Positions 3,401-56,353 of a stretch of DNA of 64,000 nt are shown here, piece by piece; the first letter of the stretch is position 1, and the number at the start of each line of letters is the position of its first letter. The stretch comes from Bolinopsis microptera (Eukaryota > Ctenophora > Tentaculata > Lobata > Bolinopsidae): positions 15,635,337 to 15,699,336 of the forward strand of contig NC_087080.1 of the NCBI RefSeq assembly GCF_026151205.1, read 5' to 3'. The notes under the pieces were generated by a model that worked only from the letters and a program-made list of their open reading frames with translations, was not told the origin of the DNA and searched no databases. The position numbers and the translations under genes are program-made.

Positions 3401-6400
3401 TTCTATGAGTAGAGGGTTATGAGGGTCATTCTAGAATTTTATGTCTTGAATTGTCAGGAAACTCGGTGTACTACATTAGCCTTGTAATTGATTTGATGTG
3501 TTAAACTAACCCAACTAAACAACCGTGTAATGCAACGCTATATAATATAGGTTGTATTATTCAACAGGGTAGTGTATATATATATACTACCCTGTTGAAT
3601 AATCCAACCTGAGATAACCTAAAGGCTGCAAATTTGGCGAACTCTTCAGCTAAATTGCAGTGTTTTTTTCCCTCCACATTTGCAGCACATAAAACAGTTT
3701 TGGGCAGGTGCAGGATCGCACTATTTGCAAAATGTTACCGCACCTATATGTTGCCTCTGTAGTCTGTAGTGTAGGCTACGTTACACCTTAAATTAAAAGA
3801 TTGGTTTCCATTAGATCGATTAAAACATTCGCTTCTCACTTCAGTATTTCATCGTTTTACTGAAAGACCGACCTTTCGAACTTTGGGACCTAAAGAGTCT
3901 TAACATCATTCGGGAAATGCCGGGAAATTTCCCGCCAGTCACCACTTTGGAGTGGTCTCCCACTCAAAACCACTCCCTGAAGCATGCTAAGGTTAGTTAA
4001 TTTCCCTTTTACACGTACCAGTTAGTATTATTCCAAGAAACAAATCGTATTCCTCATTTTCTGGTTCTCCGCCCTATTACCAGGCTACTTCATCAAAACA
4101 TTCGATATTTAATAAAACAGAACTGATTGGTTTCAAAATAGTTCCCAACTATAATGTTCAGTTCAGTAAAAAAGGAGAAGAGCCAGCAGGGATAATAGAA
4201 CAGGTGACGAATCCGACTGACGGCCCAATTAGAGAGCACTTCGTTTTCACTGATACTGATGGGGTCGTGTACCATCTCATGGTGGAAGGTATGTTGCGTG
4301 GTATTTCCTTATCGTGGTTCGAGGATATCGAATATTTTGATAAATAAGCGGTTATCAAACCAGATGTTTATTATATGTTTATTTAGGTACCGTGATAAAA
4401 GAAGGTACACGTATTAATAAGCGGTTATCAAACCAGATGTTTATTATATGTTTATTTAGGTACCGTGATAAAAGAAGGTACACGTATTAATAAGCGGTTA
4501 TCAAACCATTTGTTTATTACATGTTTATTTAGGTACCGTGATAAAAGAAGGTACACGTATTAATAAGCGGTTATCAAACCAGTTGTTTATTACATGTTTA
4601 TTTAGGTACCGTGATAAAAGAAGGTACACGTATTAATAAGCGGTTATAAAACCAGATGTTTATTATATGTTTATTTAGGTACCGTGATAAAAGAAGGTAG
4701 ACGTATTAATAAGCGGTTATAAAACGAGATGTTTGTTACATGTTTATTTAGGTACCGTGATAAAAGAAGGTACACGTATTAATAAGCGGTTATAAAACGC
4801 AATGTTTGTTACATGTTTATTTAGGTACCGTGATAAAAGAAGGTACACGTATTAATAAGCGGTTATCAAACCAGATGTTTGTTACATGTTTATTTAGGTA
4901 CCGTGATAAAAGAAGGTACACGCATACCACCTGACTCTCAGACTGGGTTGATCAACAGTATAGCTTGGAGAGGTGATTTAATGGTGTTGGGTGACTCTAC
5001 TGGACATCTGAGTTTCTGGGACCTGAAGGCAAGGTTAGTTTGGAAGTGTGTGAAATTATCTGTTAAAATAAGAATCGAATTTCATACTGTTGTTTATCTC
5101 ATGAAACGTATTTGTGGATCAATATTTTGAGGAGATTTTCACAACTAAGATTTTGTTTTCCTTAATTAAATCCAGTAAAAGTGCGCACTTATCAAAGATC
5201 ACTGTTTTCCAGACAATCAAGACTAGTTCCCACAAGTCGAGGAGCGATAAAGAAACTCTTGCTAGCTCCGGGAAGAAACACTCAGCTCCTGCTAGTCTTG
5301 TTTAATGATGGAGTGGAGATATGGGACTGTGCTGAAAGTGAGGTGGGTTTTTGTGAGGTGAACACTTCGGTTATATACTCTATGTTTACGTATGTTATGT
5401 CTGCATACAAATTGCATTGCAGTATGGTGGAAATGTTGTGTAAAACACAAGGTTCGCTCCGTCACGCGCAAGAGATGACGACTTTGGAAGGCGCTAAAAC
5501 AATTCTTTTCATAATTGCAGTTTTTCAGCAGTTGAAAACGTGAGCATACGACGCGCTATTTCAGGTTTTATTATCATGTTGCCACGTGCGATGTGATTTA
5601 TGAGCGCGAACCTCACGAACTGTACATTATCCAATATTTATGATTAGTTGCTTTTGTCAGAGTTAGTGTACCACCCAATCCGATAACAAATATGCCCCAT
5701 ACATTCCCCAGGTCCTGTCGTCTATCAAGTCCTCTAAGATTGGGGAGGTTGTTGACGTTGACTGGGGAGCAAGTGATAGACCGATTATTGTTAACGATTC
5801 GGGTGCTGTGCACATCATGGATGTTAACCTGGACACTGCACCCAACCCTGTCACTGCTTTGTCTCTTCATACCCCCATTTGGTTAGTCAGCCGTCAGGCG
5901 ATTAAATAAACTTTGTTCAGCTTAGATGATTTTAGTTTCAATGTAAAGTAAGACTGATGCTGCACATACGATTTGATTTGAAACTTTTACACATTGTGTT
6001 GATAATAAGTTTAGGGAAGTTAACGTGTCTCGATTTCTGCAGGTTACCATTCATCTATAATCAGAAAGAAATGATGAACTTTAAGATATACATTCAACAT
6101 ATGGTGAGTTCTCACTTTCTCACACTATTGACAATTCTTGTCAATGATCGCAACCTTTCATTTGGTCGTCTACAAGGTTCAAATTTGGACTCTGTAAATT
6201 TGATTGATATTGAATACAATCAGGGTTGGCAAGAGAACTGGGATATGAAATGTCCAGCATCCTGCACTCCGATAATTTGGGACTCAATGTTGCACACCCT
6301 CAAACTGAGAGACAAGTTCTCAACCCTCTCTTTTCTGGAGCGCTGTCTCGTCACTGCAGGTCCGTTACTTTCTTGACTGCTTTCAAATGTTTTATCAAGG

Positions 6401-6878
6401 TTTTGTATTGAATTGTGATCTGATCTAAATTAAGATTCGTTTCTGGCACCAGGGCTTCTTTCAAACTATTCAAAATGAATCTCTGTTATCAAGAAACTGA
6501 GCAGTTTTCACAAATAACAATCACTCTTAATTATTCAATAATTACTTGAATTCCACTCAGCACTGTACGGAGACATGGTAGAATGGAGACTGTGGCAAGT
6601 TCTAGCATACTATCTTGATCAGAGCTCGCCTCTCTCATCAGCTTTCGATATAGTCCAGGATAACCAGAGCTATCTCAAAGATCAGGTTTGTTTTTAAGAC
6701 CTCCTCTAGATGTCAAGAATTACCCATTTACCCTGATCTGTGATATCTTAGACCTCGCGGCATGTTGATCACACCTTTTCGTTTCAGACTAAGAGCCTGG
6801 CAGTTCAGGAGAAGTGTCGGAGCACTTACTCTCACAGGCAGCACTCTATTCATCGGCACATTCTGTTAGGTACATTAC

Positions 6879-6911
<33 letters not shown>

Positions 6912-6965
6912 TTACTCTCACAGGCAGCACTCTATTCATCGGCACATTCTGTTAGGTACGTTACT

Positions 6966-6997
<32 letters not shown>

Positions 6998-9900
6998 GCA
7001 CTTACTCTCACAGGCAGCACTCTATTCATCGGCACATTCTGTTAGGTACATTCTGTTAGGTACATTCTGTTAGGTACATTCTGTTAGGTACATTCTGTTA
7101 GGTACATTCTGTTAGGTACATTCTGTTAGGTACATTCTGTTAGGTACATTCTGTTAGGTACATTCTGTTAGGTACATTCTGTTAGGTACATTCTGTTAGG
7201 TACATTCTGTTAGGTACATTCTGTTAGGTACATTCTGTTAGGTACATTCTGTTAGGTACATTCTGTTAGGTACATTCTGTTAGGTACATTCTGTTAGGTA
7301 CATTCTGTTAGGTACATTCTGTTAGGTACATTCTGTTAGGTACATTCTGTTAGGTACATTCTGTTAGGTACATTCTGTTAGGTACATTCTGTTAGGAACA
7401 TTACTGTTAGGCACATTACTGTTAGGCACATTACTGTTAGGTACATTATTTGGGGGGGGGGGGTCCTGTTTTTTTGTACGGTTTTGTCCGTGCGGTACCC
7501 TATATTTTCAAGACGGACAAAAAATAGGGCGGACAAAAACGGACAAAGAAAACATGAGCCCCCTCCCCCCCTAAGTAGGGACCAAGTTGACCACACCCCT
7601 ACTTCTCGAATTCAGGAAACACGGATAAACCAGTGCAGTTGTTACTTGAAGTTGAGCAGGACTCTCCTAACTTCTATCAGGATTGTTTGAGAGCTTCTCT
7701 TATTTCCAGCGTATCTGACAGCGAGGTTCGTTCATTTTATTTTTATAGATCTCGTTTAAAACAGATAGGAGTCATCTTTATACTTGAGTTTTGATGACCT
7801 ATCCACTCACACCATATTATCGGCTACCCTCGCTACCAGCGATGTGACCATGTAGTTTCTACATTAGTTCACTGTGTGAAGCTCGTTGTTGCTATTATAT
7901 TTCTGACACTACATTCAGTACACGGTGGACAGTGACACGACCTACTTGAGCAGCAAGCTGAGTAGCGGTCCCCAGCAGCCTCTTGAGCGAGTGAGAATAA
8001 CACGTGTGACACTCTTTAAGTGATGAGACCGTAGATTATTGCGTGATTTGATCTCAGTTTGCGTGATGAGATTTTAAAGTTATGATTTGATGTCGCTTTC
8101 CGTGATTCGTATGCACAGTAGATTCACCCCATTTTATTTATAAGCGTGTGATGCGACTTTGATTATGTGAATGGGTACGTTTCTAGCATTTTGACACATT
8201 ATTTCTCATTTATCTGTCATTTATTGTACTTACATAAACTTGGCTGGTTCCATTCGATATTGATCCTTGACCTTGTCTTATGTTCTTGGACATGGATTTC
8301 AATTTCCCTGAAATCTTAGGAATGCCACTCTTCCATTTGGACATGAACCATACTATGAACCATTTACAATTCTCTTTTTCTTCTCCATTTTCTTCGGAAT
8401 CTTAATATGTCAAAAGTTTTGGAATCGCATCTCCCATTGAATATGTTCCATTCCCATCCTCATTCCTCATTGTTATAGTTGTGAAGTTTCTGGGTTGCAT
8501 GACTATACATACTTTATTATCTTAATAAATGTGCGGTAAATATATTAGGATTTAGGAGTGTACACCGAAGTGAGCCTGAAGTTTCCCATACCCTCCATTA
8601 TTCTCTCGAAGGCACGAAAGATTCAGTCAGCCCTACTCTGAAATCTAAGCTCTAAAATAAGTCAAGACTTTATTTTCATCATATTCACTCCACACCGCAG
8701 GTGGCACAAAGTACAATAAAACTAGTGGCTACAAACCTGATAGCAAACGATCACCTGCTCGAGGGATGCCAGCTGCTATGTCTTATCAAGAAAGCTGTCG
8801 ACGCTTGCAGGTACGTATTTCAAATGTTAGCAATGACGGTAACCGTTTTAGCAAGTATAAAGATCTTAGAGTGCAAAAGTAGACAACTTAGTTTTAACCG
8901 GGATATAAGCATCGTTATTAATCTAACATGTAAGTTTACACTTTACACTTTGTATATCTTGGAACTGCTTATTAAGCAATCCGACACTCCGCTTCAAGTA
9001 TGTTATTTCCAATTAAAAACATGTATAAAGTTAAATTTATTAACAACATTTTATAATTTGTTAACAACATATATAATATAGAATTACGCACTATAAGCCC
9101 CAAAATATTAAACCGTGTTTAAATGTTGCCAGGTATATGCAGAACTTCCATCACTACAACGAGGCTATATGGCTCGCTAAAGTAGCTCTGAGCAGAGATG
9201 AGTATTTCGAGGTAAAAACTACCACTTTTAACCGCCTGGCGCCTACCGGTATTTTAGTATCGTACCGTATACGTATTACGTGAGCCAAACTTTTTCCATT
9301 TTAAACACCCCTACCCTCCATAAATTTTGAAACTCAATAATTTAGACGTTTTAATCAACTATATAATGTAGTGGAGTACTACTTGTACACGTGCCTGAAA
9401 TATGCAGTGTAACTGTTACAACAGAACAATAGGTAGCTTGCTAAGAGAGTGTCCCCTAGTCTAGGGAGTAGCTAAGGATCCATTGGATCTATGCGATCTC
9501 CTCGGTCGACTGATAGGAAACTTAATTGAGGGTTAAATGAGTTAAAAGTTCAAAAAACCTCCTAGGATACCCCTTCACTCTTCCGTGCATACTGTAAACA
9601 TAGTACTATTAACTATCATTAACTATTATGAGAGCTAAAATATAACCGCCAGGTAACCAGGTAACCAGGTAACCAGGTAACCAGGTAACCAAAACGTATA
9701 ACCGCCAGGTAATGAAGTACTACATAGACCTGCTGGTCAACAACGGATCCAGACATCTGGGTATACTGCTGGCTATATCACTTCACTATTTCGATAAAGC
9801 AGCCGAGATTCTTCTTGCTACCAAACTTGTCACTGTTAGTATCTTTAACAGTTGCTATAAATCAAACTTATTAGCCAACCTTGCTGTTTTGATAACTACA

Positions 9901-10223
9901 AATTGCATTTTCAACAAGGCTACTCTGACTGTAGTTCTTATTTGAGGGTAGAGTGAACTCTGCAGCCAATATGTTGAGTATCTTACTTTTTTTTCTTTTT
10001 TTTACCACATACCCTTCCTCAGATCGCAGCTCCACTAGTGGAGTCGTGTATAGAAGCAGGAAAGTGGCCGGACACCGGCTCTGACATTAAAGACAGGGTA
10101 TTTGTAGAGTATGCTAAGTACATGGTGTCCCTGAACAACGTGGAACTAGCCCTGAAGTACTGTGATATGGGAGGGGAGAAGGGGAAACAGCTGGGGGAGG
10201 AACTCAGAATTTGTGCTCAGTAA
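486..10223 (+). CDS. WDR11: WDR11-like WD-repeat protein, 3' half of a multi-exon gene
   Basis: WDR11 is a beta-propeller protein of the endosome-to-Golgi tethering complex, also linked to cilia and Hedgehog signalling. The exons I can join are 486-610, 3845-3991, 4084-4288, 4898-5033, 5213-5342, 5712-5881, 6043-6103, ~6177-6359, 6561-6685, 6788-6869, 7616-7725, 8701-8810, 9133-9211, 9709-9834 and 10023-10223 (TAA). In order they match vertebrate WDR11: KVSYLHQ, FELWDLKSLNIIREMPGNFP, EHFVFTDTDGVVYHL, SFWDLKA, VDVDWGASD, SFLERCLVTAG, KPVQLLLEVEQDSP, STIKLVATNLIAN and AIWLAKVALS. Phases agree at the joined junctions except into ~6177, where the frame stays open through the supposed intron. The 5' half, including the start codon, lies off the left edge. 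The last 200 bases encode the end of the C-terminal helical region. Assignment is firm; individual splice sites are inferred. Confidence 0.93.
690..2615 (+). mobile_element. 5'-truncated non-LTR retrotransposon: reverse transcriptase region
   Basis: One reading frame is open from about 690 to the stop at 2615. It encodes the linker before the RT, the fingers/palm (RATGPDDIPSEL near 1083; MSSAFDTIS near 1480; GAFQGDALSGNLF near 1640), the catalytic box YSDD near 1812, and the post-RT thumb and tail (LRRILNIRWPTG, RWRMLGHILRG). The usual catalytic box is YADD or FADD, so the alanine is replaced by serine while both aspartates are kept. No apurinic endonuclease domain lies upstream, so this is a 5'-truncated copy with an uninterrupted RT. 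The tail resembles RTE-like elements, but the clade is not certain. It sits in the sense direction in the WDR11 intron between the exons at 486 and 3845. Confidence 0.82.
3161..3224. mobile_element. Small MITE-like element, copy 1
   Basis: A 64-bp segment starts AATAATACCTTG and ends CAAGGTATTATT, a 12-bp terminal inverted repeat. Its interior GCACTCAACAGCC is the reverse complement of the interior of a related element at 30009-30099. Confidence 0.45.
3550..3609. repeat. Near-perfect hairpin
   Basis: Arms of about 24 bp, with ATTCAACAGGGTAGT on the left and ACTACCCTGTTGAAT on the right, are separated by a short TA-alternating loop that is itself self-complementary. It lies in a WDR11 intron and could be a tiny foldback element. 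Confidence 0.7.
4345..4915 (+). repeat. 73-bp minisatellite spanning a WDR11 3' splice site
   Basis: About eight copies of a 73-bp unit run into the exon at 4898. Each unit holds the intron end GTTTATTTAG followed by the first exon bases GTACCGTGATAAAAGAAGGT. Every copy therefore repeats the acceptor plus about 25 bp of coding sequence. Only the last copy (junction 4897/4898) leads into the open WDR11 exon; 73 is not a multiple of 3, so using an upstream acceptor would shift the frame. Confidence 0.9.
6788..7045 (+). repeat. Triplicated WDR11 exon fragment separated by poly-G runs
   Basis: The exon 6788-6869 carries the segment from GCACTTACTCTCACAGG to CTGTTAG. The same ~50 bp recurs at about 6909-6957 and 6997-7045. 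Between copies lie G runs of about 29 (6880-6908) and 31 bases (6966-6996). Copy 1 is the one in frame with the upstream exon. Confidence 0.88.
7046..7396 (+). repeat. 14-bp minisatellite of a WDR11 5' splice site
   Basis: About 25 uninterrupted copies of GTACATTCTGTTAG. The unit is the last bases of the WDR11 exon (TTCTGTTAG) joined to the first intron bases (GTACA), so each copy holds a potential donor. Slightly altered copies (ACATTACTGTTAGGC) continue to about 7450, then a 12-base G run. Confidence 0.92.
9445..9635 (+). mobile_element. 5'-truncated SINE body
   Basis: This stretch, including GGAGTAGCTAAGGATCCATT, AGGAAACTTAATTGAG and CATACTGTAAACATAGT, is a diverged copy of the sequence following the tRNA-like head at 56731, 59923 and 63036. 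The tRNA-like head is absent here; the match begins around CCTAGTCTAGGG. It lies in the WDR11 intron before the exon at 9709. Confidence 0.75.
9641..9712 (+). repeat. Duplicated acceptor with GTAACCAG array
   Basis: TATAACCGCCAGGTAA appears at about 9641 and again at 9697, the second being the real 3' splice site of the exon at 9709. Between them lie about five copies of GTAACCAG. This is a small local amplification around an acceptor. Confidence 0.6.
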
Positions 10224-11470
10224 AGTTTGATAAAACAGATGGACAGAAAGTTAAAAGAAAACAGAAATATAAAGGAAAAAGAAGGTGAAAAGTCTGATTT
10301 CCGGAGAGGTAAGTGCAGAACAATTTTCAGTTTAAATAGCAAGGACTCTATTTTATAAATTGGAGCTGACAGTGCAGTTTGCAATTGCAATCTTACAAAA
10401 TGATTAATATTTGGGACTTAAGCTAAAACTTAAATGTATTTCACAGTTTTGATACGCGAGTTATATAGCATAAGTTGTATAGTATCTTTGAAAGAATTAT
10501 GAATTTCGCTTCAATTGGAAATTGAAATTCACGAAAATTATTGTGATGTAATGCCCTCAAAAGCAAACTACTGTATTTAATTGATATGACCTACGTTTTG
10601 AGTGTTGCTGATTTTGGTATTCGTATTCATTTTGACTGATTTATTTTGAATGTTTAATTTTACTCCTTAGCTTTACTATTGAATGGATATAACACAAATT
10701 GACATCACGTGCCATTGTTCACCCACTCATCTCCATTCTCCATTAACAATTAATTCCGTCCGAACACGAATTATTGACACACAACTGTACACGTTAACTT
10801 CATTTCAGAAGTAAACTTTCAGACACTTTCAGATGTTTATATAGATATGATAACATTGCAATTATATACTTGACAATAGAGCTACGATTGAATAGGGCCA
10901 GGGAGCTTTTTGAAGTACTTGCTAAATTGACTTCAATCCCGAATAGTGACTCCAAGCTGAACTAAAATTAAATATGTCCAGTCAAGCACGATGTGACTCT
11001 GACATCTAGTTTGAAATGGGTCATCCTGGAGTCCAAACTGTTCTATTCATAAGCTCTGAATCAATATCCACGCCAATGCCATCATATGACAACATTATAA
11101 GCAGAAAGCAAAGCTTTACTCCTTCATAATAACATTATAAATCATTTCTCAGCCTTGAACTTCAACTGTTTATTCAACTCAATCACATGACAGTTATCTC
11201 TCCCCGCTGAGAATCGTTTTGGTTCTCTAAAACGTAAGAATATTCCAGATTGTTCCTTAATGTTTTTAGAATTTACCTCCTCTTCTGCTAATCTCTGTCG
11301 TTCCCTCTTCGTGTGATACGGTGTCAGAGGCTTACCTGGAATGCTCCGCTATAATATCCACTGTTTCAAAAGATGTGCACCTCGACGGGCAATATCTTCA
11401 AGGTTACATCAGAAATGTATTACAAACTGTGATATTCAAATGGGATCTCTTTTTGAGAGACTGATGGTAA
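10224..11470. other. WDR11 3' flank and intergenic region
   Basis: Follows the WDR11 stop. A short frame begins with ATG at 10239 (MDRKLKENRN...) and runs into AGAG|GTAAGT at 10309; this could be 3'UTR or a separate first exon. At 11142-11348 the minus strand holds a 69-codon open frame (KPLTPYHTKRERQRLAEEE) after a weak acceptor, but a strong donor CAG|GTAAGC lies inside it on the same strand, so its status is unresolved. Confidence 0.3.
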
Positions 11471-11471
11471 A

Positions 11472-11935
11472 TGGTAATGGTGCAATCTAAATAAACTCAT
11501 GTTTATTAATATAATAAATATAATAATAATACTGACCAGGGGCTTGGTAATGGTGCAATCTAAATAAACTCATGTAATCCTGCACACTGACCAGGGGCGT
11601 GGTAATGGTGCAATCTAAATAAACTCATGTAATCCTGCATACTGACCAGGGGCGTGGTAATGGTGCAATCTAAATAAACTCATGTAATCCTGCACACTGA
11701 CCAGGGGCGTGGTAATGGTGCAATCTAAATAAACTCATGTAATCCTGCATACTGACCAGGGGCGTGGTAATGGTGCAATCTAAATAAACTCATGTAATCC
11801 TGCACACTGACCAGGGGCGTGGTAATGGTGCAATCTAAATAAACTCAAGTAATCCTGCATACTGACCAGGGGCGTGGTAATGGTGCAATCTAAATAAACT
11901 CAAGTAATCCTGCATACTGACCAGGGGCGTGATAG
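11472..11935. repeat. 55-bp tandem repeat
   Basis: About eight copies of a 55-bp unit containing GGTAATGGTGCAATCTAAAT and CTGACCAGGGGCGT. The first copy carries an AT-rich insertion. It ends about 40 bp before the possible plus-strand exon at 11974. Confidence 0.88.
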
Positions 11936-11973
11936 TAAGGTTTGGTGACCTGCATGTGTCTCCCTCTCTCCAG

Positions 11974-12059
11974 TACTAACAAGCACCTGTTCAGGTGGTT
12001 GCTCATCCAGCTGTTTGTACTGGTCACGTGCTTCGTGCTCATGGAAACCACTTTCTGGG
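11974..12059 (+). CDS. Possible single exon encoding a transmembrane segment
   Basis: Between CTCTCTCCAG| and TTTCTGGG|GTATTT lies an 86-bp open stretch encoding a hydrophobic helix (LFRWLLIQLFVLVTCFVL) with basic residues before it. Splice signals at both ends and natural composition favour an exon, but I found no partner exon with matching phase and cannot name the protein. The donor end is the founder of the following 25-bp satellite. Confidence 0.35.
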
Positions 12060-12775
12060 GTATTTCACACGTGTTATTTGTGGGGTATTACATGTAAATT
12101 ACACACGTGTTATTTGTGGGGTATTACACACGTGTTATTTGTGGGGTATTACGCACGTGTTATTTGTGGGGTATTACACACGTGTTATTTGTAGGGTATT
12201 ACACACGTGTTATTTGTGGGGTATTACACACGTGTTATTTGTGGGGTATTACACACGTGTTATTTGTGGGGTATTACGCACGTGTTATTTGTGGGGTATT
12301 ACACACGTGTTATTTGTGGGGTATTACACACGTGTTATGTGTGGGGTATTACACACGTGTTGTTTGTGGGGTATTACGCACGTGTTATTTGTGGGGTATT
12401 ACACACGTGTTATTTGTGGGGTATTACATGTAAATTACACACGTGTTATTTGTTGGGTATTACACACGTGTTATTTATGGGGTATTACACACGTGTTATT
12501 TGTGGGGTATTACACACGTGTTATTTGTAGGGTATTACACACGTGTTATTTGTGGGGTATTACATGTACGTGTTATTTGTGGGGTATTACGCACGTGTTA
12601 TTTGTGGGGTATTACACACGTGTTATTTGTGGGGTATTACACACGTGTTATTTGTGGGGTATTACACACGTGTTATTTGTGGGGTATTACACACGTGTTA
12701 TTTGTGGGGTATTACACACGTGTTATTTGTGGGGTATTACACACGTGTTATTTATGGGGTATTACACACGTGTTG
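12050..12775. repeat. 25-bp minisatellite with an E-box in nearly every unit
   Basis: About 28 copies of a 25-bp unit built from TTTGTGGGGTATTACACACG plus TGTTA. Almost every unit contains the palindrome CACGTG. The first unit, TTTCTGGGGTATTTCACACG, is the end of the possible exon at 11974-12059 with its donor. Since 25 is not a multiple of 3 and the unit lacks stops in any frame of this strand, it yields long spurious open frames (up to 267 codons) with a 25-residue period. Confidence 0.93.
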
Positions 12776-12928
12776 TAGTGACTTATATTCTGGGATAATT
12801 AATAATGTACTATGTAGTCACTAGTCTGAAAAGTAAAAATATTAACATGTGCGTCTCGCGGAGGCTTAACTCTTAATTGATACAATATGAAATAACAAAA
12901 TAGAAAGGTGAATCATAGGTGCAAAAAT

Positions 12929-13147
12929 CAGTTTGATGTCACTTCCTGATTGTATCCTACCTTAACATGGTTAGTTTGATGTCACTTCCTGATTGTATCC
13001 TACCTTAACATGGTTAGTTTGATGTCACTTCCTGATTGTATCCTACCTTAACATGGTTAGTTTGATGTCACTTCCTGGTTGTATCCTACCTTAACATGGT
13101 TAGTTTGATGTCACTTCCTGATTGTATCCTACCTTAACATGGTTAGT
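12929..13147 (-). repeat. 43-bp minisatellite spanning a minus-strand 5' splice site
   Basis: Five copies of a 43-bp unit. Read on the minus strand each contains AACCATGTTAAG|GTAGGATA, the last bases and donor of the coiled-coil exon 13133-13247. Confidence 0.85.
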
Positions 13148-14148
13148 GATCTGGTTCCTTCTTTCCTTCCTCTTTTCTAAAGTAGCATGGGAGTGTTTCA
13201 GTTCCTCGTTCAGCAAATTGTTGTTCCTCAGGGCTCTCTGGGAGGGACTAAAAGTCAGCACAGTGTTTATTCTATTAAAATAATATGGGAGCTATCAACA
13301 TTTAACGAGATTTTTGCACATTTGTCACATTTAGGTTCTTTGTCCTGTACTGTGTGAATGTGGAGGAAAGAAAAAAACATGTGTGTGAAGATAATAAATT
13401 AGAATATAAACGAACTTGAACTTGAACATGTGTGAAGATGATAAATTAGAATATAAACGAACTTGAACTTTCTTTGAAAAAAACTGTTCCTTCGTACGGA
13501 GTCCTAATTCCTTAATTTCCGGAAGCTTTATCATCTTTTGAGCACTTAGAGATTCACTTATCACGTTAAATTATGCCAAAACTTTCCTATTTCCAACAAA
13601 TCTAACGAAACTAACTCTGTTCGAACGTGCAGAAAATGTTTTTTATTCAGAATAGTATAGTGGACAACATTCAGCACCATCTTAATAAGTTAATACAAGC
13701 ACTGATGATTTTGACAAAAACGCATATTAGTACTACATGACAAAATATTAAACCGTTTTGAACGTTCAGATTTTTGTTGGTGTCCAGATTAAATCTTCAA
13801 CGAACGAAAAGCTTTCAAACAAATGTTTAAGCTAGACAAATTGCGTTGACTGTTTTAGCTTAAACTGACGGAATAAACTCGTCAATTAACATAGAAAAAG
13901 GCATCCAAGTTGGTTAGGAGTGCTGTTTCTACTCATTCGATTGCAAGCAGTGATGCAGCGGTTGTACATGATTTTCACAAATGTTTGACCACAATTTCGA
14001 AGATAAAATTATACTAATTTGCATCACAGGGATCGCTCATAACCATACTCACATTGAAGGAGTAAAGCTTTGCTTTCTGCTTCCTTTTAGTCGTGGGGCT
14101 ACGTTTTTTAGAGCTCTCAGCGCGACTTTCTGTGTCACTACCAGCCAT
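13133..14148 (-). CDS. Coiled-coil protein, 5' part (two exons recognised)
   Basis: Exon 1 (14148-14053) starts with ATG in good context (TCATCATGG) and encodes a 32-residue Ser/Lys-rich basic N-terminus (MAGSDTESRAESSKKRSP...KLYSFN) ending at AAT|GTGAGT. A second exon (13247-13133) encodes a charged, heptad-like helix (LRNNNLLNEELKHSHATLEK, then RKERRNQ) ending AAG|GTAGGA. Exon 1 ends in phase 0 while the second exon needs phase 2, so a further exon probably lies between them. Downstream exons are not settled; 11142-11348 is one candidate. I do not recognise the family. A basic N-terminus followed by a coiled coil with N..L spacing is seen in several chromosomal and centrosomal proteins. Confidence 0.45.
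13381..13470. repeat. ~47-bp direct duplication
   Basis: GTGTGAAGAT(A/G)ATAAATTAGAATATAAACGAACTTGAACTT is present twice in a row in the intron between the two recognised coiled-coil exons. Confidence 0.7.
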
Positions 14149-14730
14149 GATGACAAAATAATACAACGAAAATGTAATAAAAATCTACAAGTGTGTGAGC
14201 CGACTGCAAATACTGAACATTATGACGTTTTGAAGTCCGATATATATCAGTGCACATTGCACAATACTCTTCAACAGGACACCGGCAGTGCTCTATGCTT
14301 GTCAATCTTGATTTCTCAACTTTTTTATGGATATCTATATTATTTGATTTAAAAACTGCCGTACTATGTTCTTTGCCATAGCGAGTTTATTTGTGAATAT
14401 TGGCTATCAAAGTTTTAAGAAGAATTAAATAAAAGTTTAATTTTAAATTCTCTTCGCAAGCAGATTATCGCTTTGTGTCCCTGAACCAGTAACTCTATCA
14501 AAATATACAGATTAATTAAAATAATCAACATTTACGCTTATGTCACTAAAAAAACTTTGTCAAGATACATTGGAACTTGCCATGTAAATATGATATGTTA
14601 AAATAGTTTCAATCGTGAATGCGTCTATAATCGTAAGTATTGCACTAATACAGACACTTTTCTCATTTCTACGTAGAGTTTATCAGTAGTTAACTGATAC
14701 TGATAGCAAACTGAAATTCAGACTCTCGCC

Positions 14731-14736
14731 TTTATT
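14731..14736 (-). terminator. Poly(A) signal of the acidic-protein gene
   Basis: AATAAA on the minus strand, 87 bases beyond the stop codon at 14823. Confidence 0.5.
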
Positions 14737-14822
14737 CTTCAACCATTCAAGGTAATTTAAGCTCTTTTGACTCTTGGGGATGGCTCTTGAAATCGGAGCC
14801 GTTAACCAAGAATATTTTCAAT

Positions 14823-15983
14823 CTATTCTTCTTCTTCTGGCTCTTCTTCTGGTTCTTCTTCTGGCTCCTCCTCAGGTTCTTCTTCTGGCTCCTCCTCAGG
14901 TTCTTCTTCTGGCTCTTCCTCAGCCTCCGGTTCCTCTTCGGCTTCCTCTTCTACTTCGGCTTCTTCTTCAACCTCCGGTTCCTCTACGGCTTCCTCTTCT
15001 ACTTCCGGTTCGGCTTCTTCTTCTGCTTCCGGTTCGGCTTCTTCTTCTGCTTCCGGTTCGGCTGCTTCTTCTGCTTCTGCTTCCGGTTCTGCTTCTGCCT
15101 CTGCTTCAGCTTCAGCTTCTGCTTCGGGTTCTGCTTCACCTTCGGGTTCTGCTTCCGCTTCAGCGTCTGCTTCCGCTTCAGTGTCTGCCTCAGGTTCAAC
15201 ACCTTCTCCAACTTCAGCTGGGGCTGCTTCCACTGCCTCCTCACCTTCAGCTGCTGGAGCATCTTCTGATGGAACCTCCACTGGCTCTCCCTCTGCAGGC
15301 TCTCCCTCAACTGCTTCACCTTCAGCTGCTTCACCTTCAGCAGGGGCCGCTTCAACCGGAGCCTCGGCATCTTCACCTTCTGCTCCAGCTGGAGCAGCCT
15401 CGACAGCTACATCGTCTGCTAGTGCATCTCCGTCTGCTTCAACGTCCTCTATAACTGCGTCTCCCTCTGCAGGTTCCACAGATACACCATCTTCTGCAGG
15501 TGGTGCTGATGCCACATCACTTGGTGGTGCATCACCTGGCGCCACAATAATGGTATCTCCTTGATTAATAGTTATGTTAACATCTTGGTCAGGCTGATCA
15601 TGGTCATGATGATGATGATGGATCACCTGCTGAACCACTATGACGTCTGGATCATTACTGGAACAACTCTCCATACTCCAATCACTGAACTCGATTGAAA
15701 CTGAAATACCATCGCTGTTCTTCTCTCGCTTCTTCTTCTTCTTCTTTACCTTCTTCTTCTTCGATTTTGCTTTGCCAGACTTCTTTTTGGGTTTTTTCTC
15801 AACCGCTTTCCCATCTGAGTCTGAGTCTGAGTTAACATGGCCATTGTCCGCGACTACTCTCGCTGGCTTGGCGGGAGATTCTGTTTTGGCTGGTTTAGTT
15901 GGAGTCGTGGGTTTTGAGTTGTGGTCTGATTTAAGGGCCTGTGGGTCTACGTGGATCACCTCTTTGCTTCCACAAGTCCCCAT
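14823..15983 (-). CDS. Acidic, probably N-myristoylated MARCKS/BASP1-like protein
   Basis: A single 386-codon frame from ATG at 15983. The frame is open further upstream without an ATG, so this is the first Met. It begins MGTCGSKE, matching the N-myristoylation pattern MGxxxS with a Cys at position 4 suited to palmitoylation. Then come a Ser/Thr/Pro region, SDSDSD, a lysine block (KKKKVKKKKKKREK) at about residues 75-90, a histidine run (HHHHHDHDQ) near 130, and a long Ala/Glu/Pro tail rich in EAEAEPE and ending in EEPEEEP repeats. Myristate plus a basic cluster plus an acidic, disordered tail is the layout of MARCKS, BASP1 and GAP-43-type membrane proteins. Homology is not demonstrable because composition dominates. 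A CTCTCAG| at about 16021 could be the acceptor of a 5'UTR intron. Confidence 0.75.
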   Translation of the reverse strand: MGTCGSKEVIHVDPQALKSDHNSKPTTPTKPAKTESPAKPARVVADNGHVNSDSDSDGKAVEKKPKKKSGKAKSKKKKVKKKKKKREKNSDGISVSIEFSDWSMESCSSNDPDVIVVQQVIHHHHHDHDQPDQDVNITINQGDTIIVAPGDAPPSDVASAPPAEDGVSVEPAEGDAVIEDVEADGDALADDVAVEAAPAGAEGEDAEAPVEAAPAEGEAAEGEAVEGEPAEGEPVEVPSEDAPAAEGEEAVEAAPAEVGEGVEPEADTEAEADAEAEAEPEGEAEPEAEAEAEAEAEAEPEAEAEEAAEPEAEEEAEPEAEEEAEPEVEEEAVEEPEVEEEAEVEEEAEEEPEAEEEPEEEPEEEPEEEPEEEPEEEPEEEPEEEE

Positions 15984-16019
15984 GTTGCTTTTACCCAAGT
16001 TAAAGGACGCTACCTTTTG

Positions 16020-18120
16020 ATCATTCTGAGAGAAGTGAGATTAGTTTACTAATTACAAAGGCAATACCAATTTAACTGATTTCTTAGTAGTTTTAAATAA
16101 TTCAATGACAAATAACAAGATTGCAGATTAAATCATCTTCAATAAATGAACAAACAACACTTAAGCTTCATATTAGTTATTACTAACATCACATTGTGGA
16201 ACTTATTACAGTAACTGAAGTATTTTTAGTGGGAACGTCCGCAGAATGTTTAAGTGCACAAATTGCATGCGAAACAACCATACTGATATACGATACTCAG
16301 TGACTCACGCTCTACATCAATACGTTTGATATGAGGTGTTGCCATGACAACCCTTGGTAACAACTAACATATTATGCAGCTTTGCTCACGGATTATATAC
16401 TTCTTTATTGTACAACCATACAACCAGTGAAATCAGTGACCACACTGTTGATACCATGTTACCATGGATCTTCATTCGTCTAATTGATTTAACAGAACTA
16501 AATGGTAATCTCCTTGAAAGTAGAGAGATTGTACAGGCCAGGATGTCGCGTCGTAAATCATAAAGTTGATAAAATTAAGGAATTAAGTTAAGTTCAAATA
16601 GGCTGGAGGCCACTTTTCCTGTGCCCCGTCCATTTCAAAGCATTCAATTTCATGCCCGACATTCGCTAACAAAATAAAGCATCGCATCGAAAAGTCACAG
16701 AGACAAAGTAATATTCTCTTAAACGGCATGTTGTTATGCTCCGGTTGCCATGGTAACACGTTGCATTTATGTCAGCATGCAAGTGGACCTGGCAAGCTTA
16801 GATTAAGCTACATTGTAATAGTAGTACGTGGAAGAATTTCAAGAATTCCAACTAGTAGACAGTGGCACTTCAAACGTACTTCAATGTAACAATGTTGATA
16901 GAAAATTTGTTTCATTCTGAGTCGGAATCAGAAAATCCTGTGTTAGAGGCAATTGATTCGTACATTTTCAAAAGATTTGTTGACACCTGATTGGCTCCTT
17001 CAGAAATTATAATAACTTACAAACCTCTCCAAGTACATCGTGAAATCATGTATTCAGCCGTTCCTTCGAAAAGCCTAGACCGCAGTAAAATAAAATCTCG
17101 CCAAGGCTTGTAATGAAATACATTTGCTTTGGCTTAAACTGGTGTGCCAAAACGGGCGGATGATTTCAGAAATACTTTAGCATGTTGACCAAGATTCACC
17201 ATTAAAACTTGAGCAACAAATGCACTAATTTGGTATAACCTTTGGTTCCAGTACAATAGATACCCTCTTAATTTACTACTATTACAACACGATTTATAAC
17301 TATTACAAAGAGGCAAATGAAAGCTTTATAAAACTATTGTACATAAAACGTCCCGCTTATAATACAGTAGATCGGTTATTATAATGCTAAGAACACTAAG
17401 GAACCCTATTCCGCAGACTACCGTTGATAGGTAATGTTACTAGTGACTATCATTAATTGTACAGATACTAGATAGGTAATGCTACTAGTAACTATCAGTA
17501 ATTGTACAGAAACTAGCACCCGGTCTTGCACATATCATAAGTCTACAGGAAGGCTGGGAGGAAGGCTGATAATAAACATTTACAGCTCCTCCAGTAAGAC
17601 ACCTGTAAAGCATGCAGCTCAAAGACATGACAAACTTAAACGGTACTTTCGGGGTCCGCGCTATATCAAAACTACCAAATCTAGAGGCCAGGACCCTCCC
17701 CCCTCCCCTACAATCGCCACGTATCAAACCCTGAACAATAAGATGTACTGAACACGGATCCAGTGACCACTCTACTAAAGAGCTCTTTATATATAATACC
17801 TCGTTTGTTGCATTAGCAACCCGAACCTAATGTCTTGGTAACCATGGTAACCTATTATAGGTAAACAAGGACGGACAGTCGCCAGGTGGGGTGATCTCAC
17901 AACATAACGAATGATATGGTAACCTTGAAAGTGTACTTAATAATAGCTTAATCATTCATCCCCCGTGTTTCAGGTCCTCTGCCTGCCACGTGGTCCAGGT
18001 TCGCTAAAGTCTGGCCCTTAATTCGACCCTTAATATTGGCTGAGAGCCGGAAATGGTGGCCATCGGTTTTGTTGGCACAGATTATGTGTTAAGTACTGGA
18101 AGCCTCTGTGTTTTGCTATG
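16020..18120. other. Intergenic region between acidic-protein gene and KRI1
   Basis: No convincing exon. A 43-bp direct duplication (GATAGGTAATG.TACTAGT.ACTATCA) is at 17427-17514. Confidence 0.4.
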
Positions 18121-18127
18121 ATCTGCA

Positions 18128-18176
18128 TGACGTAAATCGTTTCCAGGGCAACACAACAACTCTTATTATAAATAGT
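18128..18176 (+). promoter_or_regulatory. Candidate KRI1 promoter: CRE-like site and TATA box
   Basis: TGACGTAA at about 18128 is followed by TTATAAATAGTAGCC at about 18166, about 300 bases upstream of the KRI1 start codon at 18474. Confidence 0.35.
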
Positions 18177-18473
18177 AGCCGGAGAGGAGGAACCACAATT
18201 AATTACAAATTAGTCTTACAATCTCACCAACTGTGACCAAACTAGTCTCCTAGCAACCAAAACTACTCACATACATGCTCAGCACCAAAATCACCGCAAA
18301 AAAAACACCAAAACGGTTCCTTTTAAAACACAACCTCAACAACACACAAAACGACACAAGCTGCTTCTAGCACTGTAATAGCTTAATAGTAGTGAATGTT
18401 ATGTAATGTTTGGTTACCATGACGACTCCTCTCATACTCTCTCTCTCGCTCAGTAGTAGCTAGAGTATATGTT

Positions 18474-21400
18474 ATGTTTGAAGCAGATAATCTCGAGGAT
18501 GTGAGTTTTACTATAAACGAGGGTTACGCTAAACGTTTCGAACACAATAACAAGCGCGAGGACCTTCATAGATGTGAGTTTCTAATCAAGTACTTACAAA
18601 TGTGATTGAAGTTTCATACTTAGCTCCATTCACCGTAGATTTTATGATGGGATTAATTTCCCTTATTAATGTTTGAGTTTTGTCTTTTTATTTATCCTGG
18701 GTAAATCTATGATCGGCAGTGTTTACGTTATAAATAATAATCAGATAATTCGGATTATCTCACGAATTATGTCAATTTTGAGACATGTTATTTGCAGTAC
18801 AGGAGAAGTATGGAAAGGACGCTCAAATTGAGGAGGATAGTAGCAGCGGTTCAGAGGAAGACGAGGATGCCATGGTTCGTAATTAATTAATTAGTAATTA
18901 ATTAATTAATTACTAATTAGTAATTACTAATTCTTACTCTGTCTTTTTATAAAAACCCTCTAACTTCATCCGATTGTTGTTTAAGTGACTCCCTTGTGAC
19001 CTCCCTGTTTGAGTAACTACACTATAGCAATCCGGCATTCGGCCATATATCAAGCTGATATGATTACACTCAGCTTGTTTAAGGGGCGGGGGGGGGGGGG
19101 GGGGTTCTGCTTGTTTAACCTAACGTTTGGTCGTTAACAGTACGACAGCATCGCAAAAGACAAGGGCTTCCTGCGAGTTCTCTCAAAGCTGAAAAGCAAG
19201 GACCCAGCCATCTACGACAAGGACAAGAATTGGTTTGAGAATGGTGAGGGTGAGGATGCAAATAAAGGTGAGGAAGTGTTACAGTAGGGGCCAGGGGGGT
19301 TACTCTACATAACTGTTAGCAGTAGACTGTCGGTATGGTTCTAATATGGTATTGGCTGGTCCAGTTCGTATTATACCTGGTTTCAGCTGGCCGGTTTTAA
19401 ATTGATAAAATAGGGCGACCGTTACAATTATTTTCATATTCTAACAGACTTTGGTGCTGATGACTTGATATTGAAAAAATTGGATTTCAATGACAGATTA
19501 ATTTAAATGTGTTGATCAGAAGGTGGGGATGATGGCGAGACAAAAAAGAAGAAAGAAAAGCCTATGTTTTTGAAAGACTACGAGCGAGAAACACTACTTA
19601 CTAAAGGAGGTGATTAACACTGCTTATGACTTGTTTCCTTGTAAATTCAACCACGTTTCATTTGCCCATTAAAGGCATTATTAGCCGATTGACTGGTAGT
19701 TGAAATATTTCTTGGAAGTGGAGACGACAACAAAGTTGAGGCCACGATCAAAAAGTAACTCATATCAGTAATCTTTATAGATTAATTTAGACGTCCGAGG
19801 ATGACTAATTAACAAGAATATCATCACCATGTACAACTCTTTCAGTTTGGTGGTTGACTCAGACGAGGACACCCCATCTGCTCCTACCTACACGGAGGAA
19901 CAGCGAGCTCTGAAAGAGGGCCTGAAGTCAGCCCTGAACTCTGTGGTAGATGAGGAGCCTGTTCTGACTCTTCGTCCTAAGTCTGATAATGATAAGGTTA
20001 ACTTTTATGTTCCCATTTTCATGATAAATCCTACCATTTAAAAGCACAATATCTACGGTAGTAGTTTGGATGTTTTGTTTAAAACTAACTGATACTGGGC
20101 TAGATCTGCGAAAGATGTTATTTTAACTTTTTATTTAACCATTAACCCCCATTAACGCTAACAGGAAAAGGAAGATGAAGATTACCGACAGTGGATGAAA
20201 GGCGAGAAATCCAAGATAAAAGACAAGAATCTGAAAAGTGACTGTGACCACCTAAAGAAAGCTTGGTCCGATCCCAATATCGAGGAAAATGAGAAGTTTT
20301 TGAGGGATTTCATCTTAAACAAAGGCTGGGCAGAGGAAGATGAGAAAGATTTGTAAGTCTATCAACACTTTTTTCTGCACCTTAAATTGTAAATTTACTT
20401 GACCGTTCAGATGCTGAAATCAAAACTTGCGATACATACGTCATCATAATGTCGCTATATATATAGAGTTGAGACACAGTTAATAAACTGCGGAGTGACT
20501 AAAATGCTATACAGCAAAAACAGAAGGCTCCAACCAAACACTCCACCTACTAATCCTAACCACCCTAACAACTCTCAAGCTCTCTCTCTTCAACCCTCAT
20601 TCCCTCACTCCTCTTGGTGCACAAAACCATTCTAACCTATGTATGTCCCCCTTACGGGTTCCACAAGCCCAACGGTACATAGTTAGACGAAAAACAGAGA
20701 AGCCTTGATTGCCAGATCAAGGACTGCATCAGTAGCAGCGAAATACGGATATACCTTCTCCCTTACAGTCAGCGAGCTGACAACTATCTGACTGTGTCTT
20801 TTAGGCCTTGCCACACCACCTTCGCTATTGCATCCGCTCGCCCGTATTCACTGACACATGCCACACCTGGGTTTAGTATGAAGATGTACGCATATTCACC
20901 CAAGATGCGGAGATGCCTCAGTTTAGCGAGTTGGGATACAACAGCAAACTCACAGGAGCATGGATCAGAATCATCAGTTACCAACCTGACACCGTTTCGG
21001 GGCTTTAATTGCAATACGGTTTCCTGTCAGGCGCCCCAGCAGTCCACCCTTGAACCACCATCTGATCCGAGAGTCACTTGAGGAGACCCGTTAGAGCTCG
21101 CAATTGGCGACGAGATAACGTTTATGGTACCTCTAGATGTTATAGTGAACTCTCAAGCTCCAACCTTCCTGAACTCCCACTCCCTCTTTCTCGATAACAA
21201 GTAAATCCATCTGGAACAGTGGGCTGCCTCTTTCCCACTGTCCCGTACCAGCTTCTTCAGCTCTCTTCCCCTAAAACCAATCCTCCTCGCAGCTCTCTCC
21301 AATTATAATAACACAAAATTGAAATGATATTTTCCTTTTTTGTTGTTGAAATATTTTACTTCAGTGTCCCAACGTATGATGAGATTGTGAACGACGACGT

Positions 21401-24400
21401 GAGTTGAATTTACTAAGCACCAATTTCTTTTGAATCATCATCAGCTCTTCCAAATTCCTCCATTATATTTCCCTGGTTTATATCATTTGATGACGTCATA
21501 CGTTAGGATGACGTCACAATATTAACAGGATGACGAGCTGCAACAGCACGCAAAGTTCGAACGGCAGTTTAACTTCCGTTATGAAGAACCTGATCATGAC
21601 CTTGTGAGTCATCGTTATATTTACACATTATATGTACATAATATATGTACATATTATGTAGTCCGTGTTTTTTCTAATTCAACTTTTAGTACCTACAGCA
21701 TATCGTACTATTGGAGTCAAATACAGAAAGTTAGAGATTAAAACTATCAGAATAATAATTATTGATATTCCATTTCAGATCAAGAATTACCCTCGTACGA
21801 TAGCGAACAGTGTGAGGAAAAACAACGAAGGCAGGAAGGAGAAACGAAAAAGAAAACAAGACAGAAAACTGAAGGTTACACAGTTTTCTGACATTTAATA
21901 TTTAGTACTACGCTGAGGAAGAGCGTACAATATCCCGCATCAGACATAGCATTGTAATTATAGTTATCAAATAACGTCACCATCTACTGCTACTTTATTT
22001 CATTCTAACTTACATAAAATGAGATGTTGTTTGCAGTTGGATCCTATGCATTATAACAATACATAATATGTCTAAAGGAAAAAGAAGAGAGAAAGCAGGA
22101 GATTGAACGACTGAAGAAACTGAAGTTAGACGAAATAGAGACAAAGTTACAGATATTGTCAGAGAACGCAGGAACTGATTTGAAACCAGCCCTCGAGGGC
22201 TGCCTAGAAGAAGATTTCAATCCAGGTAATAAGGTTATTATTCTGGGAGAGAGACACATTCTGACTCCAAAACTTGGATCAAAGTCATTTTCTTAGATTT
22301 CAGAAGTTCATTGAAAAACATTATGTTCCATGATTTGTTATCAGGTCAGTAGAACACATTAACTAATTATAAACAAGTTAATTGCCCACACAGAGGAGCA
22401 CGACAAGGTTATGAGCAAGTTGTTTGACGAGGACTACTACCAGGAAGAAGACGTGAAGAAGCCAGTCTTTAGTGACTCTGACGATGACCTTGTCAGTAAG
22501 TAGTTATTTTATCAGTCTTCAGTGACTCTGACGAGGACCTTATCAGTAAGTAGTTATTTTATCAGTCTTCAGTGACTCTGACGAGGACCTTATCAGTAAG
22601 TAGTTATTTTATCAGTCTTCAGTGACTCTGACGATGACCTTGTCAGTAAGTAGTTATTTTATCAGTCTTCAGTGACTCTGACGATGACCTTATCAGTAAG
22701 TAGTTATTTTATCAGTCTTCAGTGACTCTGACGAGGACCTTATCAGTAAGTAGTTATTTTATCGCCGTGTAGATATTTTATGGAGAAGTTTGTAAACACT
22801 TTATCAAAAGTAACAACTTGGTAGTGGGTATGGTACTTAGGACTTAGTTATGAGTTTGTTGGAGCTAGCTTATTGGAAGAATCAACTATGATGTGTTCTT
22901 GACTTAATAACGTTGTAGTCTTAATGTTTTTTTTTTTTTCAAAATTTAATCTTAAAATCAGTCCAGACTGAAAATTTGCGAAATATAAACCGTGAGTAAA
23001 AAATTTATAAATTTTACTGCCGAAATGAATTAAAATATTGAAAACAACAAAAATTTTGATTAACACTGATACCACTTTCCAGTAATGTTTACAATTTACC
23101 AAATACCGTATCATAAAGTTGTTCATCACAGTTAGTAGTTATCCAAGGAGAGGAAAGTTAGAAAATTTGTTATAAAATCAAATTAATTTGTTAATAAAAT
23201 CAAACACATATTATAAAACTTAAATTGCGAACCAAAGAAAAACTCTTTTTGACTTGATCTTGCCTGTATCGTATCCTCCTCGGACTTTATCGTAATATCT
23301 TGACTCTAAAAGGATTTAGTTAGTAGTCTCAGATGTTAATTGCGGGTTAAATTATATATAGTACTATTTTGATACTACATAATATATGGTACCTCGACAC
23401 CAACACCTTGGTGACTCACGCCGATATAGAATACTCCAGAAAGATATCTGAAGCCTAATGATCCATTTGTGTTGCCCTGATCATTGGAATACTATATTCT
23501 AAACTACCTTGTGATAAAAAATCAACAATATTTAAGGGATCGTATTATTATCAATAACTCCAGATTTTTGGAAATAATCGACGACGAATGCTCAAGAAGT
23601 CGTTTAAAAAAACTTAAGTACTGAAAGCCTCTACAGTTTACTATACAGCAAATGGGTTCTTATAAAAATATTTTTTATTAAAAAATCAGGAGATTATATC
23701 CCAACTCTCCAGCACTCAGCAGTCATATACTCATATATTATAGTCCCCAATCTCCAGTATCAGCAGGCATGTCTTATAGTTCCCACTCTTCAGTACTCAG
23801 CAGGCATGTCTTATAGTCCCCACTCTCCAGTACTCAGCAGTCCTGTCTTATAGTTCCCACTCTTCAGTACTCAGCAGTCATGTCTTATAGTTCCCACTCT
23901 CCAGTACTTAGCACTCAGCGGTCAGGTCTTATACTTTATAGTCCCACTCTCCAGTACTCAGCAGTCATGTCTTATAGTTCCCACTCTCCAGTACTCAGCA
24001 GGCATGTCTTATAGTCCCCACTCTCCAGTACTCAGCAGGCATGTCTTCTACTTTATAGTCCCACTCTCCAGTACTCAGCAGTCATGTCTTCTAGTCCCCA
24101 CTCTCCAGTACTCAGCAGTCCTGTCTTATAGTCCCCACTCTCCAGTACTCAGCAGTCCTGTCGTATAGTCCCCACTCTCCACTCTCCAGCACTCAGCAGT
24201 CATGTCTTCTACTTTATAGTCCCCACTCTCCAGTACTCAGCAGTCATGTCTTATAGTCCCCACTCTCCAGTACTCAGCAGTCCTATCTTATAGTCCCCAC
24301 TCTCCAGCACTCGGCAGTCATGTCTTATAGTCCCCACTCTCCAGTACTCAGCAGTCATGTCTTATAGTCCCCACTCTCCAGTACTCAGCAGTCATGTCTT

Positions 24401-54966: not shown

Positions 54967-55940
54967 CTATTACAGTTACACAGAAGCAGCAACAAAAATA
55001 ATTAGAAGTTAAGGCGATCAAATAAATTTGCCGGCAGGAAACTAAACAACTGATACACTATAAAATCCAGACACTGAATGAAAAATTTACAAGACCTGTC
55101 AGTTTTAGTACTTTCTCCAGCCCTTTATCTGAAAATGTCAAGCATTCTATTATCTTTTCCACAAAGTACATAGTACAGTCAAATCCGTCTTTTTGTCGGA
55201 CAAAATTCGCAACAAAGCGATTTTAACGGGATATGGTCGGGACAGGTCCCAGGATTCATTCCAGAGAGTTCCTAAAATCCTCGACTTCAGGAAAATCCAC
55301 AGTTACCACTTTTTTACCACCTTTTTACCACTTTGGTTTTCCGCAAATAAGTCACGTTCTGAATATCCTAGAAGATTCTAGTTTAAAGCATTGTGTTAAG
55401 AAAACAAAGAAGAACAACTTTTTCTTTAACAACGTTTTCAAAAATAAATTATTTATTTAATTAATTAAATAATTAATAAATTTTAAAATATTTCAAAAAT
55501 ACATTTTCATGAAAAATGTTCACAATTACATTCCACGAATATTGAACTAATTTCTATGAAAATTTTGAAAATTTTCACTAACAATATTTTGAACTTGTAA
55601 AATTTACGAAATTTGAGAAGAAAAACCACTATTTACCACTTTTTACCACATTGAATCTCCGCTAAAAAAACGACTTCTGAATATCGTAGAAGGTTCTAGA
55701 TTGAACCAATGTGTTCAAAATATAAAGAGAACAAAGTTTTATCTGACAACCTTTGGATTAGATAATTAATTAATTAGTTAATTCGATTATTAAACAAATA
55801 TCCAAAAATTATAAAAATTATTTTTGATCAAAATATTTTAAAATTACATATCACGAATAATTAACAAATTTCCATTAAATTAATCGGGAAATCGAAGTAG
55901 TACTTTATATAACCATATATATACTAGATAACAGTCTAAC

Positions 55941-56240
55941 TTATGAGTCCTCAGCTGGCACATTGCTGCAATTGTCCTGACATTTGAGGCAGGTTGATCC
56001 ACAATGTATTCCTGCTTTTCTGCATGAACAAGCATTGCCACAACCTGACTTTAAACATTTGCAACTGATTTTTTGAATGAGCTTTTTCGGAGCTGTACTC
56101 ATAAGAGTGGTCACTGGTACATGTGTCCCATTGTTCATCTTCCATCCCAGCTTATCGGATCTAGGTCATTCTCATCCCACACCTGCTGCTGATGGTAAAC
56201 ACGATAAGAATGTTGGCGGGAGCTGTTCGCACTTGATGTC
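55941..56240 (-). pseudogene. C-terminal fragment of a CXC-type cysteine-rich protein (copy A)
   Basis: Encodes the cysteine array ISCKCLKSGCGNACSCRKAG followed by IHCGSTCLKCQDNCSN and stop near 55941. This ending, preceded by LDPISW and NNGTHVPVTT, is a common C-terminus of uncharacterised invertebrate proteins linked to mobile elements and related to Tesmin/TSO1 CXC motifs. A one-base frame change near 56149 separates VYHQQQVWDENDLDPISW from the cysteine part. Only the C-terminal piece is present. Confidence 0.6.
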
Positions 56241-56353
56241 TGCTGTTGAAGATTGCGACTTCTGTTCAAGAACTGAAAGTCTTGCTTCATCTAGTGATCT
56301 CGATTTTTATGAAATCAGCTATTCTTAACCAATACAATGTTTTAATTTACCAG

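Follow-up and report, generated by a model that had tools for sequence, protein, structure and literature searches.

Why should minisatellites that differ in sequence and in unit length sit on the exon–intron junctions of neighbouring genes? The question is raised by a stretch of 64,000 nucleotides from the ctenophore Bolinopsis microptera (hereafter the window; contig NC_087080.1, G000:C9:15635337-15699336 in our numbering; GC content 38.1%), which belongs to a genome of 264.65 megabases (Mb) in 232 contigs. Arrays were located with Tandem Repeats Finder (TRF), which recovered all those named in the initial annotation, and junctions were predicted from reading frame and homology. We conclude that the arrays are probably mirage-type minisatellites, in which a stretch straddling an exon–intron boundary first doubled in tandem and afterwards gained further copies. 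The term comes from amphioxus, where Adh3 and the globin genes BflGb6 and BflGb9 carry minisatellite-like tandem copies over exon–intron boundaries (PMC3087553).

WDR11 carries two such arrays, one at an acceptor and one at a donor (Table 1). Our hand-built model joins 16 exons into a single open frame of 670 codons with one terminal stop, and both array junctions fall within it. The peptide predicted across the acceptor 4897/4898 aligns without gaps to solved WDR11 chains (E = 9.7e-15), as does the peptide across the donor 6869/6870 (E = 4.8e-9). The donor is present in an 86-base-pair (bp) unit made up of exon end, donor and poly-G, and again in the 14-bp unit that follows; that the 86-bp unit itself spans the junction was missing from the initial annotation. 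The reading frame is preserved through the copy that adjoins the coding exon, and the remaining copies lie on the intron side, a position from which they should be removed along with the intron. Runs of 29 G (6880-6908) and 31 G (6966-6996) lie inside the WDR11 donor array and might give rise to slippage or to assembly errors. A 1-kb query containing the 73-bp array matched only itself, in a single haplotype. A smaller case had been reported at another WDR11 acceptor, 9708/9709. Here 16-bp junction copies, TATAACCGCCAGGTAA, flank both sides of an 8-bp CCAGGTAA block, and the second copy contains the acceptor, but the block itself ends before the junction.

The other two arrays lie at donors. 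In KRI1 the exon that enters the 50-bp array matches the Pfam family Kri1 (PF05178; E = 1.3e-8). The 50-bp units also hold an acceptor-like sequence, TTATTTTATCAG, so that a 30-nucleotide in-frame mini-exon is possible on paper; the array's acceptor and donor scores (4.4 and 4.3) are low relative to most WDR11 sites. A genome search for Pfam Kri1_C returned zero matches, as it did in control genomes, and is uninformative. On the minus strand, the exon whose donor lies in the 43-bp array belongs to a putative gene with phase-consistent exons at 14053-14148, 13133-13237, ~11950-12037 and 11142-11335 (phase and the extent of the last exon were judged by eye). The 3' end of its first exon recurs inverted about 3 kb away (~11101-11127 and 14053-14080, by eye).

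Five arrays had been said to contain a splice junction, and the claim holds for those of 73, 86/14, 43 and 50 bp in frame-consistent models. It fails for the 25-bp array, proposed as the donor of a plus-strand exon ending at 12059, as the exon at that place (~11950-12037) belongs to the minus strand. The 55-bp array nearby was likewise rejected as donor-spanning, since the alternative donor that it would require breaks the frame with the next exon (by eye). The units are unrelated and do not form one repeat family, yet they share the junction position, as the initial annotation had it, and the same structure recurs elsewhere in the genome.

Table 1. Arrays and adjoining exons in the window (positions are those of the window; copy numbers and extents of arrays from TRF)
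Feature	Position	Strand	Remarks
73-bp minisatellite x 7.9	4343-4922	+	TRF; spans predicted WDR11 acceptor 4897/4898; final 25 bp coding
WDR11 exon	4898-5033	+	First 25 bp part of 73-bp array
WDR11 exon	6788-6869	+	3' end (about 48-51 bp) is copy 1 of 86-bp array
Compound array	6819-7447	+	86-bp unit x 2.7, then 14-bp unit ACATTCTGTTAGGT x 29.4; authentic donor 6869/6870
86-bp part x 2.7	6819-7052	+	TRF extent within compound array
14-bp part x 29.4	7034-7447	+	TRF extent within compound array
8-bp array CCAGGTAA x 5.4	9641-9712	+	Including flanking copies (TRF 9649-9691); near WDR11 acceptor 9708/9709
55-bp array x 7.3	11529-11931	-	18 bp from preferred donor 11949/11950; adjacent, not spanning
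25-bp array	12098-12774		TRF; intron of minus-strand gene; not counted as junction-spanning
43-bp minisatellite x 5.1	12930-13147	-	TRF; spans predicted minus-strand exon donor; 15 bp exonic
Coding exon (RALRNNNLLNEELKHSHATLEKRKERRNQITNHVK)	13133-13237	-	Donor at 13133 lies in 43-bp array
KRI1 exon	22394-22495	+	Last 33 bp is copy 1 of 50-bp array
50-bp minisatellite x 6	22463-22763	+	TRF; spans predicted KRI1 donor 22495/22496

We class these arrays with the amphioxus mirages on structural features. In both, the unit holds exonic and intronic sequence of one junction. Amphioxus mirages occur at the 5' or the 3' boundary, their unit length is gene-specific and AG/GT is found in many copies (PMC3087553). 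Both boundaries are affected here too (donors 6869, 22495 and 13133; acceptor 4897/4898 and the acceptor at locus L044, described below), and unit lengths differ among genes. The amphioxus arrays left splicing undisturbed, and their reported range is the cephalochordates (PMC3087553); the host here belongs to another phylum. Further marks of mirages are somatic instability and arrays that differ in length between haplotypes. Ordinary intronic minisatellites resemble our arrays in period, in copy number and in that their copies are nearly identical, but the unit here includes coding sequence and a splice site. By this reading replication slippage, or some local event like it, would have produced the first duplication, unequal exchange would subsequently have altered copy number, and the arrays would persist since splicing hides them.

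The strongest competing explanation is chance combined with tolerance: minisatellites would arise everywhere in a repeat-rich genome, be purged from coding interiors and otherwise hit junctions without bias. We consider this possible, if somewhat short of an even prospect. Our null model placed the founder unit at random and accepted a position if the unit either avoided coding sequence altogether or lay across one junction and no more. For the window, the test took in bases 1-24000, with 58 modelled junctions and eight non-coding arrays; the compound array counted as one of 86 bp, the set excluded the coding array at 14829-15179, and the score of the 8-bp array was below the cut-off of 100. 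Half of the arrays (4/8) span a junction where 0.98 would be expected by chance (p = 0.009), a value that is optimistic because the region had been singled out for this feature. A sample fixed beforehand, 20 stretches of 10 kb (one of them, L018, half N), yielded 36 TRF arrays (score at least 100, period at least 8) and 198 predicted junctions, and there the excess was not significant, with junctions spanned by 2/36 arrays where 1.3 were expected (p = 0.38), or 3/36 (p = 0.14) when a 2.2-copy array at L014 that may span an acceptor is included. At best setting the gene finder recovered 15/16 WDR11 exons, and 12/16 after iteration, owing to drift; the exon predictions and chance tests used splice tables from WDR11 alone and a codon table partly fed by the finder's own predictions. 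The sample contains an array of 29 bp x 24 spanning a predicted donor, with 21 bp exonic (L005), and a second donor-spanning array with 27 bp exonic (L011, continuing into L021). An array beside a minus-strand exon at L019 stops about 8 bp from the acceptor and was not counted.

Against chance stands an excess of donor-like words in arrays across the genome. We counted sites at which an 8-mer occurs three times, its copies separated by 5-35 bp, with the reversed word as control; long arrays are overcounted by this procedure. Donor words gave 961 triple matches against 11 reversed (AGGTAAGT), 836 against 192 (AGGTGAGT) and 2343 against 94 (AGGTTAGT), and broken donors 133 against 20 (AGGAAAGT) and 493 against 0 (AGCTGAGT). 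The three donor words (836, 961 and 2343) thus exceed eight non-donor words (0, 11, 20, 86, 94, 133, 192 and 493). The sole acceptor word tried, TTTTCAGG, showed no enrichment (183 against 86 reversed). Counting all genome occurrences, array copies included, words and reversed words compare as 8480 vs 7650 (AGGTGAGT), 10764 vs 7968 (AGGTAAGT) and 21700 vs 8941 (TTTTCAGG); abundance thus does not account for the donor excess of AGGTGAGT and AGGTAAGT, and the acceptor word has no excess. Distinct arrays were then counted by eye among the matches listed, with Mb spans estimated and rates uncorrected for word abundance. This gave 26 donor-word families (10 for AGGTGAGT, nine for AGGTTAGT and seven, from 10 loci, for AGGTAAGT) and 22 control arrays (five for TGAGTGGA, six for AGCTGAGT and 11 for AGGAAAGT), a rate ratio per Mb of 3.5 (p = 1.6e-5); single comparisons among these matches ranged from a ratio of 2.5 (p = 0.052) up to 6.7 (p = 6e-5). 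GGTGAGT is present in two of the five TGAGTGGA control arrays. The assertion that the placement exceeds chance is partly supported: the selected window and the roughly 3.5-fold donor-word excess speak for it, the unselected sample shows no significant excess and the acceptor word no enrichment. The examples first offered mixed donors with acceptors, while the genome-wide signal is confined to donor-like sequence.

We examined the 5' flanks of 33 donor-word arrays, identifying junctions by exon scoring and by eye. These were 10 arrays of AGGTGAGT (on contig C1), 10 of AGGTAAGT and nine of AGGTTAGT, all among the matches listed, and four clusters from the all-occurrence lists. Seven of the 33 appear to span a coding donor (L022, L024, L026, L027, L042, L043 and L052; partly by eye), two begin 2-3 bp inside a coding donor exon (L025 and L053) and two span an opposite-strand acceptor (L044 and L058, the latter by eye only). 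For 19 no junction was identified in the flank, two of them with the 5' edge of the array unreached (L040 and L050), and none of the 10 flank-examined AGGTAAGT arrays was seen to span a donor. Several candidates were set aside: L023 and L056, each with an acceptor no more than about 20 bp away; L035, which by eye adjoins a putative, unconfirmed zinc-finger acceptor; and L028, whose weak score of 13.0 kept it from being counted as spanning, though it passes the exon-score threshold used below. Other clusters exist in the all-occurrence lists outside the 33, for example one with ~1-kb spacing at C1:1164786-1174568. At C2:22506615-22507931 a 35-bp array switches strand midway, leaving two inverted halves.

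Homology supports several of these exons. That at L043 matches a dynein heavy chain-like protein (E = 4.5e-7), that at L053 matches CIB (E = 5.5e-10) and that at L052 a C2H2 zinc finger (E = 7.6e-7); below the Pfam cut-off, the exon beside the L044 acceptor resembles copine (E = 1.5e-4) and that at L022 a sushi domain (E = 0.023), a likeness shared by L042 as judged by eye. L022 (C1:400782) and L042 (C1:428574) lie 28 kb apart, and the equivalent donor of their sushi-like exons carries arrays that differ between the two (34 and 54 bp). Directly upstream of the L043 donor array (L043:900-1180), the dynein exon has a stretch of at least 100 bp that is repeated at an offset of ~170 bp (by eye). 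Over 14 donor arrays the exonic overlap of the unit is 2-48 bp, and it is at least 7 bp in 12/14.

The donor-like excess points to a bias toward donor-type sequence beyond boundary duplication itself. Either the process that duplicates DNA prefers certain sequences, or there is some link to transcribed 5' splice sites. It is in this excess that any novelty may lie. A mutational bias at 5' splice sites, in which transcription, R-loops or splicing seeds the duplications, would be favoured by the enrichment of repeat units for donor-like rather than acceptor-like sequence, and by the two sushi-like exons with different arrays at the equivalent donor. In the sample (32 arrays, units of at most 120 bp) the best donor score of a unit averaged percentile 0.67 relative to matched non-array DNA (p = 0.0015), with no excess for acceptor scores (0.50); in 12 window arrays the donor mean was 0.66 (p = 0.03). 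Against dinucleotide-shuffled units the donor mean was only 0.57 (p = 0.15), and in 20 arrays of at least three copies p was 0.047; without the two junction arrays p was 0.27. This weakening means that part of the signal, and much of it in the sample, is composition. Donor-word arrays also occur where no coding exon is seen, and acceptors are hit too (the 73-bp array, L044 and L058). At an exon-score threshold of 12 (the 90th percentile of random GT sites being 12.9), 6/20 donor-word arrays reach a coding exon, against 5/17 AGGT[AG]AGT sites in the sample. The arrays compared were the 10 of AGGTGAGT and the 10 of AGGTAAGT, those of AGGTTAGT being left out as scored on a different scale, and untranslated or non-coding exons would escape scoring in both groups. 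Array membership hence does not visibly raise the odds of a recognised coding donor, a result that favours chance placement, and the splice-linked mechanism put forward in the initial annotation gains nothing from it; we keep that mechanism as a possibility and judge it unlikely. Also unlikely, in our view, is the bolder proposal that arrays are preferentially seeded at 5' splice sites by a process recognising transcribed donors, which would make mirages a genome-wide, donor-biased mutational class and a continuing source of duplicate donors, of in-frame mini-exons (as in KRI1) and of new introns (as at L027).

Intron gain, in which a duplicated exonic AGGT creates a splice site and the array made some of the introns or donors, we regard as improbable. 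There is a potato RNA-dependent RNA polymerase case of gain by tandem duplication of AGGT-containing sequence (PMC4974935), and the amphioxus authors proposed a related model, naming the Rogers AG/GT model (PMC3087553). Our arrays share local tandem duplication with such cases, but in them existing junctions have been multiplied many times. L027 is the nearest candidate, for the duplicated-exon part only: its 23-bp unit matches the final 23 exonic bp, so that GTGAGT, the donor, duplicates sequence of the exon. The WDR11 junctions, by contrast, belong to a conserved gene of many exons, and intron sequence forms part of most units. Least credible is an artefact whereby junction sequence was multiplied during long-read consensus building or gap closing. 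Although what is probably this assembly was gap-closed and polished (PMC10232365) and a draft assembly rendered one amphioxus mirage aberrantly (PMC3087553), point changes and small differences in length distinguish the copies here, and the arrays lie on many contigs, also at non-junction places.

Several results weigh against boundary duplication as the origin of the arrays, beginning with the lack of a significant excess in the sample. Pfam searches gave no match for the exons at L005, for the minus-strand gene with the donor at 13133, or for the L024, L026, L042 and L043 peptides (L025, L027 and L058 being outside the search), and a PDB search gave none for the L026 peptide. No KRI1 exons beyond the array were found in the window by a weak motif search. 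Unit length, considered as a possible mark of removal by splicing, is not a multiple of three in 15/18 arrays, which is indistinguishable from the neutral expectation (p = 0.10). Removal of the intron-side copies by splicing is something we infer, and some of the arrays could be assembly errors, given the gap closing and polishing of the likely assembly.

Boundary duplication followed by amplification is nevertheless the reading we prefer. The amphioxus globin paper was the sole direct precedent for junction minisatellites that we recognised, subscription papers being mostly outside the search. A further study reportedly deals with internal tandem repeats that alter human gene structure (PMC2812944). 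Passages of a ctenophore paper make no mention of junction repeats (PMC8527503).

Other features of the window include a reverse-transcriptase-like open frame of 641 codons within a WDR11 intron (690-2615, plus strand; LINE-type, that is, of long interspersed nuclear element type, by eye). A long Glu/Ala/Pro-rich coding frame at 14823-16025 on the minus strand has in-frame repeats of 12, 18 and 24 bp, and the period of its coding array is a multiple of three, in contrast to most junction arrays. Two copies of a segment of ~2.9 kb (55303-58222 and 58495-61414) lie 3192 bp apart; their ends are TTACCACTTTT and its reverse complement, and TRF rows suggest a two-copy terminal-inverted-repeat element.

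Mirages have so far come from a few amphioxus genes, where they were proposed as a route to new introns. Ctenophores are placed as sister to other animals (PMC10232365), and mirages at several ctenophore loci would mean that they are no amphioxus peculiarity. These loci would also supply many young, countable cases for the study of intron gain, of site choice among identical copies and of repeat instability.

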